Positions 42,569 to 48,642 of a DNA stretch of 64,000 nucleotides are shown here, in pieces; position 1 is the stretch's first letter; each line of letters begins with the position of its first letter. The notes beneath the pieces were generated by a model, which saw only the letters and a program-made list of their open reading frames with translations, ran no database searches and had not been told where the DNA came from. This stretch comes from Bradyrhizobium sp. CB82 (GTDB lineage: Bacteria; Pseudomonadota; Alphaproteobacteria; Rhizobiales; Xanthobacteraceae). Position numbers and translations under genes: made by a program. The stretch is from the NCBI RefSeq assembly GCF_029714405.1, contig NZ_CP121650.1, positions 6,205,001-6,269,000 of the forward strand, read 5' to 3'.

Positions 42569-43960
42569 TCACACGCGCGCTTCGGCGAGGCTCGGCGCGC
42601 CTTCGGCCTGCGGGCCGCGACGCAGGTAGAACCACCAGGTCAGCCCGAGACAGGAGGCGTAGAACACGAGATAGACCGCGAGCGCGAGCTGCGGTCCGCC
42701 GGTCATCGCGATCGACTTGCCGAAACCGCTCGGGATCAGATAGCCGCCGACCGCGCCGACCGCTCCGATGAAGCCGACTGCCGCACCACTCTCGATGCTC
42801 GCCGTCTTCAGCGCGAGCGCGCGCGCCGCGTCGCCCTTGCCGCGCACCTTGAACAGATTCTCCTCGCGGAAGATCGAGGGGATCATCCGGTAGGTCGAAC
42901 CGTTGCCGATGCCTGTCGTGACGAACAGGATCAGGAACATCGAGAGGAAGCCGATGAAGTCCTTCTGACCGACGAAATAGAGCACGCCGATCGTCGCCGC
43001 CGCCATCGCGATGAAATTCCAGAACGTGATGATGGAGCCGCCGACCTTGTCGGCCAGCCAGCCGCCGAACGGCCGCGACAGCGAGCCGACCAGCGGACCC
43101 AGGAAGGCGATCGAGATCGTCATCGCGGGAAACTGGGTCTTGATCAGCAGCGGAAATGCCGCCGAGTAGCCGATGAACGAGCCGAAGGTCCCGATATAGA
43201 GATAGGCCATGATCCAGGTGTGCTTGCGCTTGACGATCGCGAGCTGGTTCTTCACCGACGACTTGGCCGAGGTCAGGTTGTTCATGAAGAACACGGCCCC
43301 GAACACGGCGATCGCGATCGGCAGCACCCACATCAAGCCGGCGTTCTGCAGAAAGGTGCCGTCGACGGGCGTCGCCTGGAACAGATTGATGACGCCGAGC
43401 GTCATCAGGATCGGCGTCAGGAGCTGCACGCTGGAGACGCCGATGTTGCCGCCGGCGGCGTTCAGACCGAGCGCCGATCCCTTCATCCGGTCAGGGAAGA
43501 AGAAGGAGATGTTGGTCATGCTGGAGGCGAAATTGCCGCCGCCGAGGCCTGCGGTCGACGCAACGAGCAACATCAGCCAGAACGGCGTGTCGGGCTGGCT
43601 CACGAAATAGGCAAGCGACAGCGTCGGAATGAACAGGATCGCCGCGCTGAAGATGGTCCAGTTGCGGCCGCCAAAGGTCGTGACCGCGAAGGTGTAGGGG
43701 AAGCGCATCAGGGCGCCGATCAGGCCCGGCACGGCGACGAGCTGGAAGAGCTGGTCAGTCGTGTAGTGGAAGCCTGCCTGCGGCAGCTTGGTGGTGACGA
43801 TGCTCCAGATCAGCCAGACCGAGAAGCCGATATGCTCTGCCACGATCGACCAGATCAGGTTGCGTCGCGCGATAGTCTTGCCAGTCGCATTCCAGAACGC
43901 CTCGTCTTCGGGGCGCCAGTCTGAAATCCAGGCCGGATTTCCAGTCGGATTCTTCGTCAT
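42569..43960 (-). CDS. narK: NarK-type nitrate/nitrite transporter
   Basis: A 463-aa major facilitator with 12 hydrophobic helices. The nitrate signature GGGNFASSMTNISFFFPDRMKG and its second-half counterpart TTGIGNGSTYRMIPSIF are present, with the conserved Arg in ALMRFPYTFAV. It imports nitrate or exports nitrite. It is the first gene of the nitrate reductase operon and follows a structured leader with a sigma54-like promoter. Confidence 0.93.
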   Translation of the reverse strand: MTKNPTGNPAWISDWRPEDEAFWNATGKTIARRNLIWSIVAEHIGFSVWLIWSIVTTKLPQAGFHYTTDQLFQLVAVPGLIGALMRFPYTFAVTTFGGRNWTIFSAAILFIPTLSLAYFVSQPDTPFWLMLLVASTAGLGGGNFASSMTNISFFFPDRMKGSALGLNAAGGNIGVSSVQLLTPILMTLGVINLFQATPVDGTFLQNAGLMWVLPIAIAVFGAVFFMNNLTSAKSSVKNQLAIVKRKHTWIMAYLYIGTFGSFIGYSAAFPLLIKTQFPAMTISIAFLGPLVGSLSRPFGGWLADKVGGSIITFWNFIAMAAATIGVLYFVGQKDFIGFLSMFLILFVTTGIGNGSTYRMIPSIFREENLFKVRGKGDAARALALKTASIESGAAVGFIGAVGAVGGYLIPSGFGKSIAMTGGPQLALAVYLVFYASCLGLTWWFYLRRGPQAEGAPSLAEARV

Positions 43961-43984
43961 TGATAATCCCTTTTGGTCTCACCG

Positions 43985-44021
43985 CTGCGTCGTTGCAGGC
44001 TCAGCCTCCACGCACGGAGGC
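43985..44021 (-). promoter_or_regulatory. paired hairpins in the narK leader (candidate NasT/ANTAR target)
   Basis: Read on the reverse strand, a GCCTCC/GGAGGC stem with six-base loop GTGCGT (44004-44021) is followed after five bases by a CTGC/GCAG stem with hexaloop AACGAC (43985-43998). AACGAC fits the A-N-N-G-N-N loop recognised by ANTAR antiterminators; the first loop does not. The pair ends 25 bp before the narK start, the same layout as at nrtA. Confidence 0.55.
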
Positions 44022-44079: not shown

Positions 44080-44097
44080 GACGTCGTCGTTGGCGTC
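44080..44097 (-). promoter_or_regulatory. first leader hairpin of narK
   Basis: On the reverse strand GACGCC / GACGTC arms, with a single mismatch, enclose hexaloop AACGAC. It begins at the predicted transcription start and aligns with the first hairpin of the nrtA leader at 47533-47550. Confidence 0.5.
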
Positions 44098-44109
44098 GCA
44101 AAATGACAT

Positions 44110-44125
44110 ATCAAATTCCATGCCA
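44110..44125 (-). promoter_or_regulatory. sigma54-like promoter of narK-bjgb-flp-nasC
   Basis: On the reverse strand TGGCATGGAATTTGAT matches the consensus TGGCAC-N5-TTGCW with correct GG-to-G spacing. The -12 doublet is GA, not GC, which weakens the call. The same deviation occurs at nrtA. Confidence 0.5.
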
Positions 44126-44301: not shown

Positions 44302-45096
44302 TTACGCGGCTTCGACGAAGCGGTGACGCTCGTAGAGGAATTCGAGTACGCGCTGGCGACACTTCAAGTAAGTGGCATTCGACGCGAGCTCGAGCCGTTT
44401 GCGGGGACGCGCGAGCGGTACGTCGAGCACTTCGCCAATGCGCGCGCTCGGCCCATTGGTCATCATCACGATGCGGTCGGACAACAGCACGGCCTCGTCG
44501 ACGTCGTGGGTGATCATCAGAATGGTGTTGCCGAGCTTCTGATGCAGCGCCATCACCGAGTCCTGTAAATGCGCGCGGGTCAGCGCGTCGAGCGCGCCGA
44601 AGGGCTCGTCGAGCAGGAGAACCTTCGGCTCCATCGCGAGCGCGCGGGCAATGCCGACCCGCTGCTTCATGCCGCCGGAGATTTCCGACGGACGCTTGTC
44701 CTTGGCATGGGCCATCTGCACGAGGCTGAGATTGTGCATTACCCAGGCCTCGCGCTCGGCCCGCGTCTTGGTCCTGGTAAAGACCTTGTCGACACCAAGC
44801 TTGACGTTCTCGAACACGGTCAGCCAGGGCAACAGGCTGTGGTTCTGGAACACCACGGCACGATCGGGGCCGGGCGAGTTGACCTCGCGGTTCTCCAGCA
44901 GCACGCCGCCGGTCGAGGCGCCGGTCAGACCTGCGATGATGTTGAGCAGAGTCGACTTGCCGCAGCCGGAGTGGCCGATGATAGAGACGTACTCGCCCTT
45001 CTCGATGGCGAGCTCGATATCCTTCAGCACCTCGGTCGTGGCGGCACCGCGGGTAAAGATCTTGTCGATGTGATCGAGCTTCAGATAGGCGGTCAT
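44302..45096 (-). CDS. nrtC: nitrate ABC transporter ATP-binding protein
   Basis: A 264-aa ABC ATPase: Walker A GHSGCGKST, signature ISGGMKQR, Walker B VLLLDEPFGALD and the switch His in ILMITHDVDEAVLL. It follows nrtB by 12 bp. It is NrtD-length, without the extra NrtA-like domain found in cyanobacterial NrtC. It energises nitrate uptake with NrtA and NrtB. Confidence 0.93.
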   Translation of the reverse strand: MTAYLKLDHIDKIFTRGAATTEVLKDIELAIEKGEYVSIIGHSGCGKSTLLNIIAGLTGASTGGVLLENREVNSPGPDRAVVFQNHSLLPWLTVFENVKLGVDKVFTRTKTRAEREAWVMHNLSLVQMAHAKDKRPSEISGGMKQRVGIARALAMEPKVLLLDEPFGALDALTRAHLQDSVMALHQKLGNTILMITHDVDEAVLLSDRIVMMTNGPSARIGEVLDVPLARPRKRLELASNATYLKCRQRVLEFLYERHRFVEAA

Positions 45097-45108: not shown

Positions 45109-46008
45109 TCAGTTCTGCGCGGTGCCGTGGGTGACGAACTTGCCGAGGCCCGCGATCAGGCGATCGAGCACGAAGCCGATGATGCCGACATAGAACAGTG
45201 CCAGGATGATCTCGCTGATATGCGAGGAGTTCCAGGCGTCCCAGATGAAGAAGCCGATGCCGACGCCGCCGATCAGCATTTCGGCCGCGACGATCGCGAG
45301 CCAGGAGAGACCGATGCCGATGCGCAGGCCGGTGAAGATGTAGGGCGCGGCCGCCGGGATCATGATCTTGCCGAAGAACTCCAGCGGATTGAGCTGCACG
45401 ACGGCCGCGACGTTGCGGTAGTCCTGCGGGATGTTGCGGATGCCGACCGCGGTGTTGATGATGATCGGCCACACCGAGGTAATGAAGATGACGAAGATCG
45501 CCGAGGGCTGGCCGTCGCGGAAGGCAGCGAGCGAGAGCGGCAGCCAGGCGAGCGGCGGGATGGTGCGCAGGACCTGGAACAGCGGATCGAGTCCGCGCAT
45601 TGCCCAGATCGATTGCCCGACCAGCGTGCCGAGCGCGATGCCGACGATGGCCGCGATCGCGTAGCCATAGGCGACGCGCTGGAGGCTGGCGGAGAGATGC
45701 CAGAACAGGCCCTTGTCGATGCCGCCATGATCGAAGAACGGATCGAGGATCAGCTCCTTGGTATCCTTGAACACTTTTGATGGCGGCGGCAGCGTCGAGC
45801 CGGCGCGGCGGCAGATGAGCTCCCAGACCAGCGTCAGCAGCGCGAGCACGACAAGCGGGGGGATGACGCGGACCGCAGTCTCCTTCGCCATCCTGGCATA
45901 AGCCTCGGCGCGCGGCGGGCGCTTCGGTGTCATCGCGACGACCGGCGCGGCGGCGGCGACGGAAGGCGCAACACCTTCAGCATTGATCTTCTTCACGGAC
46001 ATGTTCAT
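45109..46008 (-). CDS. nrtB: nitrate ABC transporter permease
   Basis: A 299-aa BPD-type permease with about six transmembrane helices after a soluble N-terminus. ALGTLVGQSIWAMRGLDP and AAAPYIFTGLRIGIGLSWLA contain the ABC-contact (EAA-like) region typical of nitrate/taurine permeases. The start is the ATG at 46008; an internal ATG at 46002 is equally usable. It lies between nrtA and nrtC. Confidence 0.92.
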   Translation of the reverse strand: MNMSVKKINAEGVAPSVAAAAPVVAMTPKRPPRAEAYARMAKETAVRVIPPLVVLALLTLVWELICRRAGSTLPPPSKVFKDTKELILDPFFDHGGIDKGLFWHLSASLQRVAYGYAIAAIVGIALGTLVGQSIWAMRGLDPLFQVLRTIPPLAWLPLSLAAFRDGQPSAIFVIFITSVWPIIINTAVGIRNIPQDYRNVAAVVQLNPLEFFGKIMIPAAAPYIFTGLRIGIGLSWLAIVAAEMLIGGVGIGFFIWDAWNSSHISEIILALFYVGIIGFVLDRLIAGLGKFVTHGTAQN

Positions 46009-46067: not shown

Positions 46068-47384
46068 TCAGACTTCGACGCGCTTGATCGCGAGCGACTT
46101 CAGATAGGCAGCCGGATTTTCGGGGTCGAACACCTTGCCGTCGAAGAAGGTCTCCTTGCCGCGCGAGGTGGACGTCGGGATATCCGAGGCCGCAACACCG
46201 AGTGTCTTGGCCGCATCCTTCCAGAGATCCTCGCGGTTGACCTTGGCGATCAGCGCCTTGCTGTCGAACCCAGGCTCGTACTTGCCCCAGCGGATGTCCT
46301 CGGTGAGGAACCAGAGATCGTGGCTCTGGAACGGATAGGAGGCATTATCTTTCCAGAAGCGCATCTGTTGCGGCGAGTTCTCGACGACACGGCCGGTGCC
46401 GTAGTCGAACTTGCCCTTCATGCGGTCGGCGATGTCTTCGACCGGGCAATTGATCCACTGGCGCTTGGCGCAGATCGTCGCCGCCTCCTCGCGGTTCTCG
46501 ACCTTCTCAGCCCATTGCTGGGCTTCCATCACCGCCATCAACAGCGCTTTCGCCGCCTTCGGGTACTTGTCAACGAAGGCCGCGCGCATGCCGAACGACT
46601 TTTCCGGATGCTTGTCCCAGAGCTCGCCGGTGGTGATCGCGGTGTAGCCGATCTCCTGGTGGATGAGCTGGAGATTCCAGGGCTCGCAGACGCAGAAGCA
46701 ATCCATGGTGCCAACCTTCATGTTGGCGACCATCTGCGGCGGCGGCACGACGATGGTTTCGATGTCCTTGTCGGGATCGATGCCGCCGGCGGCGAGCCAA
46801 TAGCGGATCCAGAGATCATGCGTGCCGCCGGGGAAGGTCATCGCGGCCTTCACGGCCTTGCCGGAGGCTTTCTTCCTATCCAGCGCGACCTTGAACGGCG
46901 CAGTGTCGATGCCAACTTTGACGTCGGCATATTCCTTGGCGACCGAGATGCACTGGCCGTTCAGGTTGAGCCGCGCCAGGATGTACATTGGCGTCGGCTG
47001 GTTGTTCTGCGTCACCTTACCGGCGGAAATCAGATACGGCATCGGCGTGAGAATGTGCGCGCCGTCGATACCATTGCCTTCGGAGCCGAGCACGAGGTTG
47101 TCGCGCGTCGTGCCCCACGAAGCCTGCTTCTGCACCTCGACGTCGGGCATGCCGTACTTGGCGAAGATGCCCTTCTCCTTGGCAACGAACAGCGGGGTCG
47201 CGTCGGTCAGCGCGATGAAGCCCAGCTTGGCGCCCTTGACCTCGGGGCCTGCTTCTTGCGCGAACGCTCCGGCGGGGAAATTCAGCTTGGCGGCGGCGAG
47301 AAGTGCAGCGGTGCTGCCGGTCGCCTTCAACAATTGACGGCGGCTGAGGCCGCTCTCTGAGGGGCGGCGAATGCGCTTGGTCAT
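46068..47384 (-). CDS. nrtA: nitrate ABC transporter substrate-binding protein
   Basis: A 438-aa periplasmic protein with a twin-arginine signal (SRRQLLK at residues 14-20, then a hydrophobic stretch ending AGAFA). VKGAKLGFIALTDATPLFVAKEKG, MPYLISAG and DCFCVCEPWNLQLIHQ are typical of NrtA. It captures nitrate for NrtBC. It heads nrtABC and is preceded by a roughly 165-nt structured leader. Confidence 0.93.
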   Translation of the reverse strand: MTKRIRRPSESGLSRRQLLKATGSTAALLAAAKLNFPAGAFAQEAGPEVKGAKLGFIALTDATPLFVAKEKGIFAKYGMPDVEVQKQASWGTTRDNLVLGSEGNGIDGAHILTPMPYLISAGKVTQNNQPTPMYILARLNLNGQCISVAKEYADVKVGIDTAPFKVALDRKKASGKAVKAAMTFPGGTHDLWIRYWLAAGGIDPDKDIETIVVPPPQMVANMKVGTMDCFCVCEPWNLQLIHQEIGYTAITTGELWDKHPEKSFGMRAAFVDKYPKAAKALLMAVMEAQQWAEKVENREEAATICAKRQWINCPVEDIADRMKGKFDYGTGRVVENSPQQMRFWKDNASYPFQSHDLWFLTEDIRWGKYEPGFDSKALIAKVNREDLWKDAAKTLGVAASDIPTSTSRGKETFFDGKVFDPENPAAYLKSLAIKRVEV

Positions 47385-47400
47385 AGGTCGTGTCGTCCTT

Positions 47401-47432
47401 TGCGTCGTTGCAGAAGTGGTGCGTCAGTGCAC
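47401..47432 (-). promoter_or_regulatory. dual-hexaloop leader element of nrtA (candidate NasT/ANTAR target)
   Basis: On the reverse strand a GTGC/GCAC stem with loop ACTGAC (47419-47432) is followed after six bases by a TGC/GCA stem with loop AACGAC (47401-47412), extendable outward past one mismatch. Both loops fit A-N-N-G-N-N, and the spacing is as described for ANTAR antiterminator targets. It ends 17 bp before the nrtA ATG. Confidence 0.65.
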
Positions 47433-47532
47433 ACGAGCCCGTCCGGCGACGCCGCCTTTGGCGCATGCGAACGCATGACGGGAGGGACCCCCGTCCGGTG
47501 GCGTCGGCAAATTCGGATGAGAAATCTCGTGG

Positions 47533-47550
47533 GACGGCGTCGATGGCGTC
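47533..47550 (-). promoter_or_regulatory. first leader hairpin of nrtA
   Basis: On the reverse strand GACGCC / GCCGTC arms with one mismatch enclose hexaloop ATCGAC. It starts at the predicted transcription start, as the matching hairpin does at narK (44080-44097). Confidence 0.5.
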
Positions 47551-47561
47551 GACACAAACTA

Positions 47562-47577
47562 TTCAAGCTTTGTGCCA
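47562..47577 (-). promoter_or_regulatory. sigma54-like promoter of nrtABC
   Basis: On the reverse strand TGGCACAAAGCTTGAA carries a perfect -24 box (TGGCAC) and a TTG at the right distance. The -12 doublet is GA rather than GC. The predicted start is near 47551. Confidence 0.55.
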
Positions 47578-47680
47578 GGCCCGGCGGGATCAATATTTAA
47601 GTTATATCAATATCTTGATGGGGATTGACAGATTGTCGCAGGCCTCTTCTCCGCACGCGGAACTTGCGACCTGCCCGGTT

Positions 47681-47695
47681 CTTGTGCGTCGCATA
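47681..47695. promoter_or_regulatory. upstream palindromic element of nrtA
   Basis: CTTGTGCGTCGCATA, an imperfect palindrome whose first 13 bases are identical to the core of the inverted repeat upstream of narK. Its centre is about 119 bp from the sigma54-like site in both cases, as expected for an enhancer-binding protein site. The binding factor is not identified. Confidence 0.45.
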
Positions 47696-47724
47696 TAAAC
47701 TAGGCAGGGCTAGGGAGGACCTTC

Positions 47725-48642
47725 TCAAGCGTGTTCCGCGACCTTCACCCCGAGCGGCTTGGGAGCCAAACCGTTGCCGGGCTTGAGGTGGAATTCATAG
47801 GTCATCAGGTGCCAGGGCGCGGCCGCCTTGCCGCCGTCGGGCATCGCCGGATCGGTGCGTTTCTCGACCTTGGCGATCAATTCGTCCTTGACCCCGAACA
47901 CCACGTCGGAATCGAGATATTTGTCGCCGCCGATGAAGACGTGGGTGATCAGGGGCTCATAGCCCTTGGCGTTGACAAGGAAATGCACGTGCGCAGGGCG
48001 CATCGGGTGGCGGCTGGTCTGCATGATCATCTCGCCGACCGGGCCGTCGGTCGGGATCGGATAGCTGCATGGCAGAATGGTGCGGAAGAAGAAGCGGCCG
48101 TCGTCATCGGTGATGAAGCGCGCCCGCGCCGAGGCGCCAATCTCGTCGTAGTTCGGCTTCTGGGAATCGTAGAAGCCGTCATCGTCGGCGTGCCACACGT
48201 CGACGGGAACGTTGGCGAGCGGCTTGCCGTTGAGGTCCGTGACGCGGCTCTGCACGAACATCTTCTCGCCGGTGAGATTATGCGGCGAGATGTCGGTGCC
48301 ATGCGCGGCCACCTTGTGCTCGCCGACATAGAAGGGGCCGAGCACCGTGGTCTCGGTGGCGCCGCCGCGGTCGCGATGGTTCACGGCGTCGACCAGCATG
48401 GAGACGCCGAGCACGTCGGAGAGCAGGATGAACTCCTGGCGGGTATTGGTGCACTTTTGTCCGGTCCGGGTCAGGAAATCGATCGCATAGTCCCATTCCT
48501 CGAAGGTGAGACCGGTCTTACTCACGTAATCGTGCAGCGACTTCACCAATTCCTGGAGCAGGAATTTCGCGCGCGGGCTTGGGGTGTTGTCGAAGCTCTT
48601 GACGACGGCCTCGGTGAGCTCGCTCTCGCTGAATTGGGTCAT
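47725..48642 (-). CDS. intradiol ring-cleavage dioxygenase (hydroxyquinol/catechol 1,2-dioxygenase type)
   Basis: A 305-aa non-haem Fe(III) enzyme. The two Tyr ligands lie in DGFYDSQ and CSYPIPTDGPVG, and the two His ligands in RPAHVHFLV. The N-terminal helical dimerisation domain and the stretch TTVLGPFYVGEH resemble hydroxyquinol 1,2-dioxygenases. It would open an aromatic diol or triol to a muconate/maleylacetate-type product. No maleylacetate reductase or regulator is adjacent. Divergent from the serine hydrolase. Confidence 0.88.
   Translation of the reverse strand: MTQFSESELTEAVVKSFDNTPSPRAKFLLQELVKSLHDYVSKTGLTFEEWDYAIDFLTRTGQKCTNTRQEFILLSDVLGVSMLVDAVNHRDRGGATETTVLGPFYVGEHKVAAHGTDISPHNLTGEKMFVQSRVTDLNGKPLANVPVDVWHADDDGFYDSQKPNYDEIGASARARFITDDDGRFFFRTILPCSYPIPTDGPVGEMIMQTSRHPMRPAHVHFLVNAKGYEPLITHVFIGGDKYLDSDVVFGVKDELIAKVEKRTDPAMPDGGKAAAPWHLMTYEFHLKPGNGLAPKPLGVKVAEHA

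Follow-up and report, generated by a model that had tools for sequence, protein, structure and literature searches.

Leader RNAs bound by ANTAR regulators have been defined as two hairpins with stems of at least 3 bp, each closed by a hexaloop that carries A at position 1 and G at position 4 (A1/G4), and in the eut operons the linkers between the hairpins measure 5-12 nt (PMC3369931). A 2022 structural study of EutV redefined the minimal ANTAR target as a single hexaloop, and left open to what extent single-hexaloop sites occur in nature (PMC8934654). Nitrate genes provide the closest described cases. In Paracoccus, nitrate liberates the ANTAR protein NasT from NasS (PMC3795266), and the hairpins HI and HII of nasA are located 137 and 91 bp upstream (PMC5424462). 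In Bradyrhizobium, dependence of narK on NasT has been published, together with hairpin predictions (PMC6759348, PMC4724949): a narK-lacZ fusion in B. japonicum USDA110 was undetectable without nasT and constitutive without nasS (PMC4724949), and NasT hairpins were predicted for both narK and bjgb (PMC6759348). Expression of narK-bjgb-flp in denitrifying cells, as described in the latter source, rose in the nasT mutant (PMC6759348). Of the titles, abstract beginnings and open-access texts that we covered, none names nrtA as a target of NasT in Bradyrhizobium. The main text of PMC6759348 contains neither “nrt” nor blr2803-2805, and where nrtA is named in the parts consulted of PMC3795266 and PMC6712156, it is just the cyanobacterial protein compared with NasS. 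Deletion of nrtABC is described as having no effect on growth with nitrate (PMC4724949).

The stretch analyzed here (the window) consists of 64,000 nucleotides, C1:6205001-6269000, of the 10.14-Mb genome of Bradyrhizobium sp. CB82. The genes of interest are all on its minus strand, in the order nrtA, nrtB, nrtC, narK, a gene for a single-domain haemoglobin (bjgb type) and one for a flavoprotein (flp type). nrtA (46068-47384) encodes a nitrate-type ABC substrate-binding protein (NMT1_2; Pfam PF13379, E 4.1e-109), nrtB (45109-46008) the permease and nrtC (44302-45096) the ATPase (NCBIfam TIGR01183 and TIGR01184, respectively, both over the cut-off), and narK (42569-43960) an MFS nitrate/nitrite transporter (NCBIfam NF011608, E 5e-131, and TIGR00886, E 1.2e-87; neither reaches its cut-off). 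The order of these genes is identical to that of blr2803-2808 of B. japonicum (PMC4724949). The closest named nrtA among the best 80 of 535 loci is that of Bradyrhizobium neotropicale (97%). Immediately upstream of the nrtA promoter, and in the same orientation, is a gene for an intradiol dioxygenase (47725-48642, minus strand). One of the retrieved contigs (L035) is labelled Streptomyces sp. AcH 505 and encodes an NrtA that is 89% identical to the window protein, which is probably due to assembly contamination.

The promoter-proximal hairpin P1

A sigma54-like -24/-12 promoter, TGGCACAAAGCTTGAAT, is located upstream of nrtA (47561-47577, minus strand). According to the spacing rule for sigma54 promoters, the transcript is predicted to start about 11-12 nt downstream, just before a hairpin that we named P1 (GACGCC-AUCGAC-GCCGUC; 47533-47550, minus strand; loop at 47539-47544). 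A first-pass annotation of the window had placed a third hexaloop, ATCGAC, at the very 5' end of the leader; the hairpin is indeed present near the predicted 5' end, and its stem turned out to be imperfect, in that a C x C mismatch adjoins the closing pair.

The sequence GACGCC-N6-GCCGTC, preceded by a TTGA -12-like box, was found in 61 of the best 80 of the 535 nrtA loci; the other 19 consist of 17 loci from outgroup genera or MAGs, with different leaders, and two truncated loci (L059 and L081). For 26 of these 80 loci, narK was present in the fetched stretch. To this set, 40 places were added that had been picked by hand from a first genus scan, favouring unusual loops and lineages. After removal of L074 (misplaced start) and L144 (no start by our rule) and merging of identical leaders, 86 nrtA-type leaders, window included, and 36 narK leaders were obtained; one of the 86, L130, seems by eye to head narK directly. 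The nrtA loci (L series) and the genus genomes (G series) overlap in part. A genome search with bare P1 and three mismatches allowed was much too permissive (402 and 391 matches) and was abandoned. The first genus scan, performed without the -24 element, gave many chance matches and was therefore repeated with GGCA..TTGA.

With the loop left free, the combination of the GGCA..TTGA promoter and the P1 arms matched in 253 of the 265 genus genomes, and the control, in which the pattern was read backwards, gave 0 in every row. In the window genome, two minus-strand matches were obtained; from the sequence, they belong to nrtA and narK. Among the 150 matches listed from this loop-free scan (G001-G109, part of all matches), A1 and G4 are kept in 149 by an eye count; G002:C3, the one that departs, lies in GC-rich sequence and seems to have matched by chance. 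Across these 150 rows, the position facing the second-last C of the 5' arm is occupied by C, A or T, and never by G. The regular expression used for the first set required G4 and excluded a G at the latter position, so the statements on A1/G4 and on the absent G rest on the loop-free scan, on the clade alignment and on the leaders fetched via the loop-free pattern; A1 and G4 are retained in all 34 distinct leaders of this last group. Loop positions 2, 3, 5 and 6 vary among the 86 nrtA-type and 36 narK leaders, which have 17 loop types overall, 15 of them nrtA-type (ATTGAA 40, ATTGAT 12, ATCGAC 8, ATTGTA 7, ATCGAT 6 and ten rarer types) and two narK. The mismatch base is C in 85 of the 86 nrtA-type leaders and T once, and in the narK leaders it is A (32/36) or C (4/36). 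Since it is never G, P1 would stay weak, as expected of a hairpin gated by a protein.

All five P1 pairs are invariant in the 34 nrtA leaders of the window clade (window included), and therefore covariation neither supports nor refutes P1 as an RNA element. In another reading, P1 is not RNA at all but a DNA operator that an unnamed transcription factor would bind as a GACG-N10-CGTC dyad located at about +2 to +20. Such an operator would be in keeping with the absence of compensatory changes in the stem and with arms that are invariant and stand at an almost constant distance from the promoter. Its conserved centre, however, is asymmetric, being A1 plus G4 rather than A1/T6 or C3/G4, which resembles an RNA hexaloop, and folding predicts, on average, more pairing of the P1 arm with downstream RNA than in shuffled sequences (see below). 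We consider this operator improbable.

Hairpins near the ATG and the regulator NasT

The first-pass annotation had put its weight on two hairpins near the ATG. Both are present on the minus strand, six bases apart: GTGC-ACTGAC-GCAC (47419-47432), with a stem of 4 bp, and TGC-AACGAC-GCA (47401-47412), with a stem of 3 bp that abuts the Shine-Dalgarno (SD)-like AAAGGA of nrtA (47396-47401, minus strand), which forms part of AAAGGAC, invariant in the alignment of the 34 clade leaders. The statement that all three loops fit A-N-N-G-N-N held as well, and the comparison with relatives that it called for showed A1 and G4 to be invariant in the 34 leaders, window included. C2 of the ACTGAC loop and A2 of the AACGAC loop are likewise invariant (34/34). 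The clade stretch holding the loops has a mean column identity of 86%, and as it is conserved anyway, invariant A1/G4 in these 34 leaders carries little weight by itself.

The stems are less well kept. For ACTGAC, the inner two pairs are retained in 32 and 34 of the 34 clade leaders and the outer two in 3 and 11; for AACGAC, the pairs are retained in 15, 32 and 32. Across the clade, both stems are thus mostly reduced to 2-3 bp. Two A1/G4 hexaloops on stems of 3 bp or longer, joined by a linker of at most 15 nt, were found in 8 of the 34 clade leaders and in 2 of the 52 other nrtA leaders, numbers that are upper bounds because the rule also admits hairpins other than ACTGAC and AACGAC. By the same rule, a pair occurred in 1.6% of 2000 dinucleotide shuffles of the 171-nt window leader (about 1.4-1.6% for shuffles overall), so the pair in the window exceeds chance; the window leader also contains four single hexaloop hairpins, against a shuffle mean of 0.45.

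These data bear on the textbook reading, in which NasT would bind the ACTGAC and AACGAC hairpins beside the ATG. The above-chance pair in the window and the invariant A1 and G4 of both loops speak for it, as does the narK hairpin of which AACGAC seems to be the counterpart (narK P2, see below), whose 4-bp stem is kept in 36 of 36 leaders. With its 6-nt linker, the window leader itself has the published dual form; the clade as a whole does not, given that the published description requires stems of at least 3 bp (with linkers of 5-12 nt in eut; PMC3369931) and that such pairs are confined to the few leaders just mentioned. We therefore give this reading little credence. The dual hexaloop put forward by the first-pass annotation is not supported as a conserved feature, and the emphasis on the ATG-proximal hairpins was misplaced: P1, the supposed third loop, is together with the rod described below the conserved ANTAR-like core of the predicted leader RNA.

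The genome contains a single ANTAR match (PF03861, E 3.0e-19), in a 196-aa protein that corresponds to NasT. Its ORF overlaps a 389-aa substrate-binding-type ORF (L001/L098), which is taken as NasS by position and length; its NCBIfam assignment is SsuA-like, below the cut-off. NasT aligns with EutV (6wsh, E 2.2e-19) and with NasR (4akk, E 1.8e-8). In EutV, the hexaloop is reported to be contacted by R142, K143, K147, K149, E160, Y164 and M172 (PMC8934654), and the residues of NasT at these positions are R, K, R, K, E, Y and M, with K147 to R as the sole change; they were assigned by position relative to the EAY motif, in agreement with the EutV alignment. Hence, the regulator type named by the first-pass annotation was confirmed, and the search for nasS and nasT that it had advised returned both genes, overlapping. 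The proposed link between P1 and NasT is well supported at the level of sequence.

An ANTAR gene was detected in 259 of the 265 genus genomes. P1 is missing from three of the six genomes without an ANTAR match, two of these three being only 72-75% complete, and from 9 of the 259 with one. The complete genome G115 lacks both, and G047 (93% complete) has P1 and no ANTAR match. The co-occurrence of P1 and NasT across genomes is only suggestive. NapD and FMN_bind (NosR) gave no match in the window genome, and the published denitrification targets of NasT seem to be absent from it.

The rod, the P1 3' arm and terminators in nrtA leaders

Downstream of P1, the linker (47514-47530) is predicted to pair with the sequence preceding the SD (pre-SD, 47433-47445), forming a rod (47433-47530, minus strand) that encloses helix T and the hairpins H1 (47477-47495) and H2 (47461-47474). 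Because aligning all 86 nrtA-type leaders together yielded little consensus structure, clades were treated separately: the 34 leaders of the window clade, the 36 narK leaders, and 22 of the 52 leaders outside the window clade (cluster 1 and five leaders selected by eye). The remaining 30 outside-clade leaders entered only the duplex, linker-helix, arm-folding and hexaloop-pair comparisons, some of them via representatives.

In the window clade, the linker/pre-SD helix has 12 pairs, with 100% of the cells paired and one two-sided change (C-G to A-U in L136). Helix T is paired in 83.6% of the cells, and its inner two pairs in just 26.5%. Other clades form a linker helix with different letters, CCAUCGG/CCGAUGG (L018), CAUCGG/CCGAUG (L020), CAUCCG/CGGAUG (L022) and UCAUCC/GGAUGA (L131), and no linker helix of this form was found in the basal group (L132 and kin). 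Two-sided changes in the window-clade alignment affect four pairs, against 1.1 in shuffles (2 of 500 shuffles). They are not above chance in the alignment of 22 outside leaders (two against 1.1; 150 of 500 shuffles), and the narK alignment has one such pair (59 of 500 shuffles). When matched duplexes were compared with mismatched ones, the linker had a mean rank of 0.335 (0.01 for cluster 0, 0.04 for cluster 2 and 0.81 for cluster 1), and no signal was obtained for helix T (0.508) or for the P1 arm (0.469). Folding of the entire 219-nt leader region gave no sign of unusual stability (z -1.12, with 27 of 200 shuffles being equally or more stable). Rfam gave no match for the whole window at gathering thresholds, and for positions 47000-47900 at E up to 10 it gave three weak matches to unrelated families.

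The 3' arm of P1 has a second potential partner. In the minimum-energy fold of the window leader, CGUCC (47532-47536, minus strand), which is this arm plus one base, pairs with GGACG of the nrtA SD (47394-47398). In 22 elkanii/jicamae-type leaders, the arm GCCGUCC faces GGACGGC, with 97.4% of the cells paired and no two-sided change. In partition-function folds of 30 representative leaders (16 clusters), the arm was paired with the 3'-terminal 80 nt at 0.59 on average, against 0.30 when everything after position 40 was shuffled (20 shuffles per leader), and P1 itself formed at 0.09, against 0.21 in the shuffles. Pairing of the arm was above the shuffle mean in 24 of the 30 representatives and below it in L015, L017, L132, L134, L138 and L069. 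Taken singly, only 8 of the 30 beat their shuffles (at most 5% reaching the value), and on average 23% of the shuffles reach it; for the window leader the values were 0.76 and 0.39, with 15% of the 20 shuffles reaching the former. When P1 was forced to form, the mean accessibility of the nrtA SD was not raised, going from 0.49 to 0.50 over the 86 leaders and from 0.38 to 0.27 in the window. These values give no support to the idea that forming P1 exposes the nrtA SD in every leader.

A simple terminator scan of the minus strand between 47200 and 47800 detected no intrinsic terminator with a U-run, and the window leader was not among the matches of a fold-based scan either. A simple terminator rule missed outgroup terminators with imperfect stems (it gave hits in 7 of 17 leaders, not all at the P2 site described below) and was for this reason replaced by the fold-based rule (hits in 9 of 17). 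With the latter, terminators were found in 4 of the 86 Bradyrhizobium/Tardiphaga-type nrtA leaders, all different and some spanning several hairpins, and in none of the 36 narK leaders. The observation of the first-pass annotation that no clear U-run terminator precedes the ATG therefore applies to the window and extends to 82 of the 86 nrtA-type and all 36 narK leaders. By the simpler rule, a run of four or five U comes after H2 in 8 of the 34 clade leaders, the window not being one of them, so a degenerate or non-canonical terminator is possible.

The outgroup leaders are organized differently. Nine of the 17, from Rhodopseudomonas, Afipia and related bacteria (L028, L032, L033, L037, L042, L048, L066, L071 and L072), share the gene and the promoter type with Bradyrhizobium and carry a hexaloop hairpin, P2, with G4 in all nine and A1 in eight (by eye). 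Unlike in Bradyrhizobium, the P2 loop or 3' stem begins the 5' side of a strong U-run terminator, for example in L042 (-36.5 kcal/mol, eight U). This overlap of P2 and terminator is the canonical ANTAR layout. A search of the window genome for the outgroup P2 (GACAGC-AACGCY-GCTGTC, three mismatches) gave 26 and 32 matches, close to the 22 and 26 of the control. In the outgroup leaders of L028, L033, L035 and L079, inspection by eye shows P1 and P2 to be preceded by an additional hairpin, the 5'-most one, whose loop has eight bases.

The narK leader and the proposed switch

The narK leader has the same layout as that of nrtA, with a sigma54-like promoter, TGGCATGGAATTTGA (44111-44125, minus strand), followed by P1 (GACGCC-AACGAC-GACGUC; 44080-44097, minus strand) and, about 80 nt further and before the SD, by P2 (CUGC-AACGAC-GCAG; 43985-43998, minus strand). 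A1 and G4 of P1 are kept in all 36 narK leaders (AACGAC 35, ACCGAC 1). The four P2 pairs are invariant in the same 36, and the P2 loops are AACGAC (30), AACGGC (3), AACGAA (2) and AAAGAC (1). The P1 architecture is also present in the narK leaders of L025 and L026, loci named B. japonicum and B. diazoefficiens. GUCCCU, which overlaps the 3' arm of narK P1 (44077-44082, minus strand), is complementary to AGGGAU at the narK SD (43966-43971), with 99.5% of the cells paired over the 36 leaders; no pair shows a two-sided change, and five of the six are invariant. The narK leaders are close in sequence, and the most divergent one, L139, breaks this pairing. Pairing of the P1 arm with the 3' 60 nt was above the shuffle mean in eight of the nine narK leaders tested and failed in L139. 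Forcing P1 to form raised the predicted mean accessibility of the narK SD from 0.24 to 0.50 (35 leaders, one having been lost for lack of an SD by our rule).

From these results we tentatively propose, as a reading that falls somewhat short of probable, that NasT captures P1 and frees its 3' arm from the 3' end of the leader, and so likely switches nrtABC on. Without protein, according to the folding predictions, P1 would be mostly open and its 3' arm paired with the pre-SD or SD region. Nitrate would free NasT from NasS, and NasT would then capture the P1 hexaloop, with help from the 3' hexaloop in narK and close relatives. Capture would pull the 3' arm off the 3' end of the leader, a strand exchange that would free the SD in narK and the pre-SD/SD region in nrtA. 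As the release of the arm would expose the ribosome-binding end, the output would be mainly translational. Against the proposal stand the small number of leaders that singly beat their shuffles in arm pairing, the increase of narK-bjgb-flp expression in the denitrifying nasT mutant (PMC6759348), the unaltered growth of the nrtABC deletion strain with nitrate (PMC4724949) and G047, in which P1 occurs with no ANTAR match. The flat accessibility of the nrtA SD upon forced P1 formation speaks against it as well; for nrtA, the output may be translational or may consist of read-through past a non-canonical terminator, both being candidates.

The second of these outputs is the core of a rival reading, in which NasT also binds P1 but acts on transcription, with the GC-rich rod (H1 and H2) serving as a non-canonical or Rho-assisted terminator that NasT disrupts, as described for nosR. 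For B. diazoefficiens nosR, a published target of NasT antitermination, a two-hairpin terminator has been described, with NasT binding to the nosR H1 (review PMC6712156). The nosR leader of L173 contains by eye UC-AUCGAC-GA and a GC-rich hairpin without an adjacent U-run, and the U-runs after H2 in some close nrtA leaders would fit as well. Moreover, the NasT-dependent narK-lacZ fusion was a transcriptional one (PMC4724949), which points to the transcript level rather than to translation. However, neither the window nor most of the clade has the U-run after H2, and the great majority of nrtA-type leaders, like all those of narK, lack a strong intrinsic terminator. We regard this rival as possible, without considering it the probable one.

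The proposal that NasT captures P1 can also be phrased in a stricter form, as a terminator-free strand-exchange switch in which a single weak 5' hexaloop, with a rod joining the two ends of the leader, lets ANTAR binding activate translation. P1, kept weak by the conserved mismatch, and the ribosome-binding end, located about 100 nt from it, would compete for the P1 3' arm; in Bradyrhizobium, the switch would have been rebuilt from a classic ANTAR antiterminator, with activation instead of repression. In this full form, the proposal is doubtful.

Comparison with described systems places the leader as follows. Like the ANTAR antiterminators (EutV/eut, NasR/nasF and AmiR/amiE), it has an A1/G4 hexaloop, a regulator with the hexaloop-contacting ANTAR residues and a position in front of a nitrogen operon. 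Unlike them, Bradyrhizobium P1 has neither a conserved second hexaloop nearby nor an overlapping intrinsic terminator, and the rod sets it about 100 nt from the 3' hexaloops. Since the hexaloop and the regulator are shared, and a conserved dual arrangement and a conserved terminator were not found, we regard the leader as a variant rather than as a member of the antiterminator class. With the NasS-NasT control of nosR, narK and nirA in B. diazoefficiens and of nasA in Paracoccus it shares the regulator pair and the kind of target gene. The actinobacterial ANTAR RNAs that extend over the ribosome-binding site resemble it in having a hexaloop beside or over the SD and mostly no terminator, but there binding is reported to repress translation (PMC8164766), whereas NasT binding would activate here. 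The arrangement of P1, rod and SD and its conservation throughout the genus are described here from sequence.

P1 thus represents a candidate single-hexaloop class, present in 253 of 265 genomes before operons with published (narK) and likely (nrtA) NasT dependence, and related lineages keep the textbook arrangement of hexaloop and terminator on the same nrtA gene. Together, these two circumstances make the question of natural single-hexaloop sites directly testable in a laboratory strain, with a bearing on nitrate use and nitrogen-oxide handling in soybean symbionts.

The gene that follows nasTS (L098:5600-6440, minus strand) resembles those of formate/nitrite-family transporters (TIGR00790, E 3.7e-48, below the cut-off). 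Its leader contains no clear U-run, and has a sigma54-like promoter and a hexaloop hairpin, CAGC-AACGAG-GCUG; this transporter-like gene is perhaps a third target of NasT.
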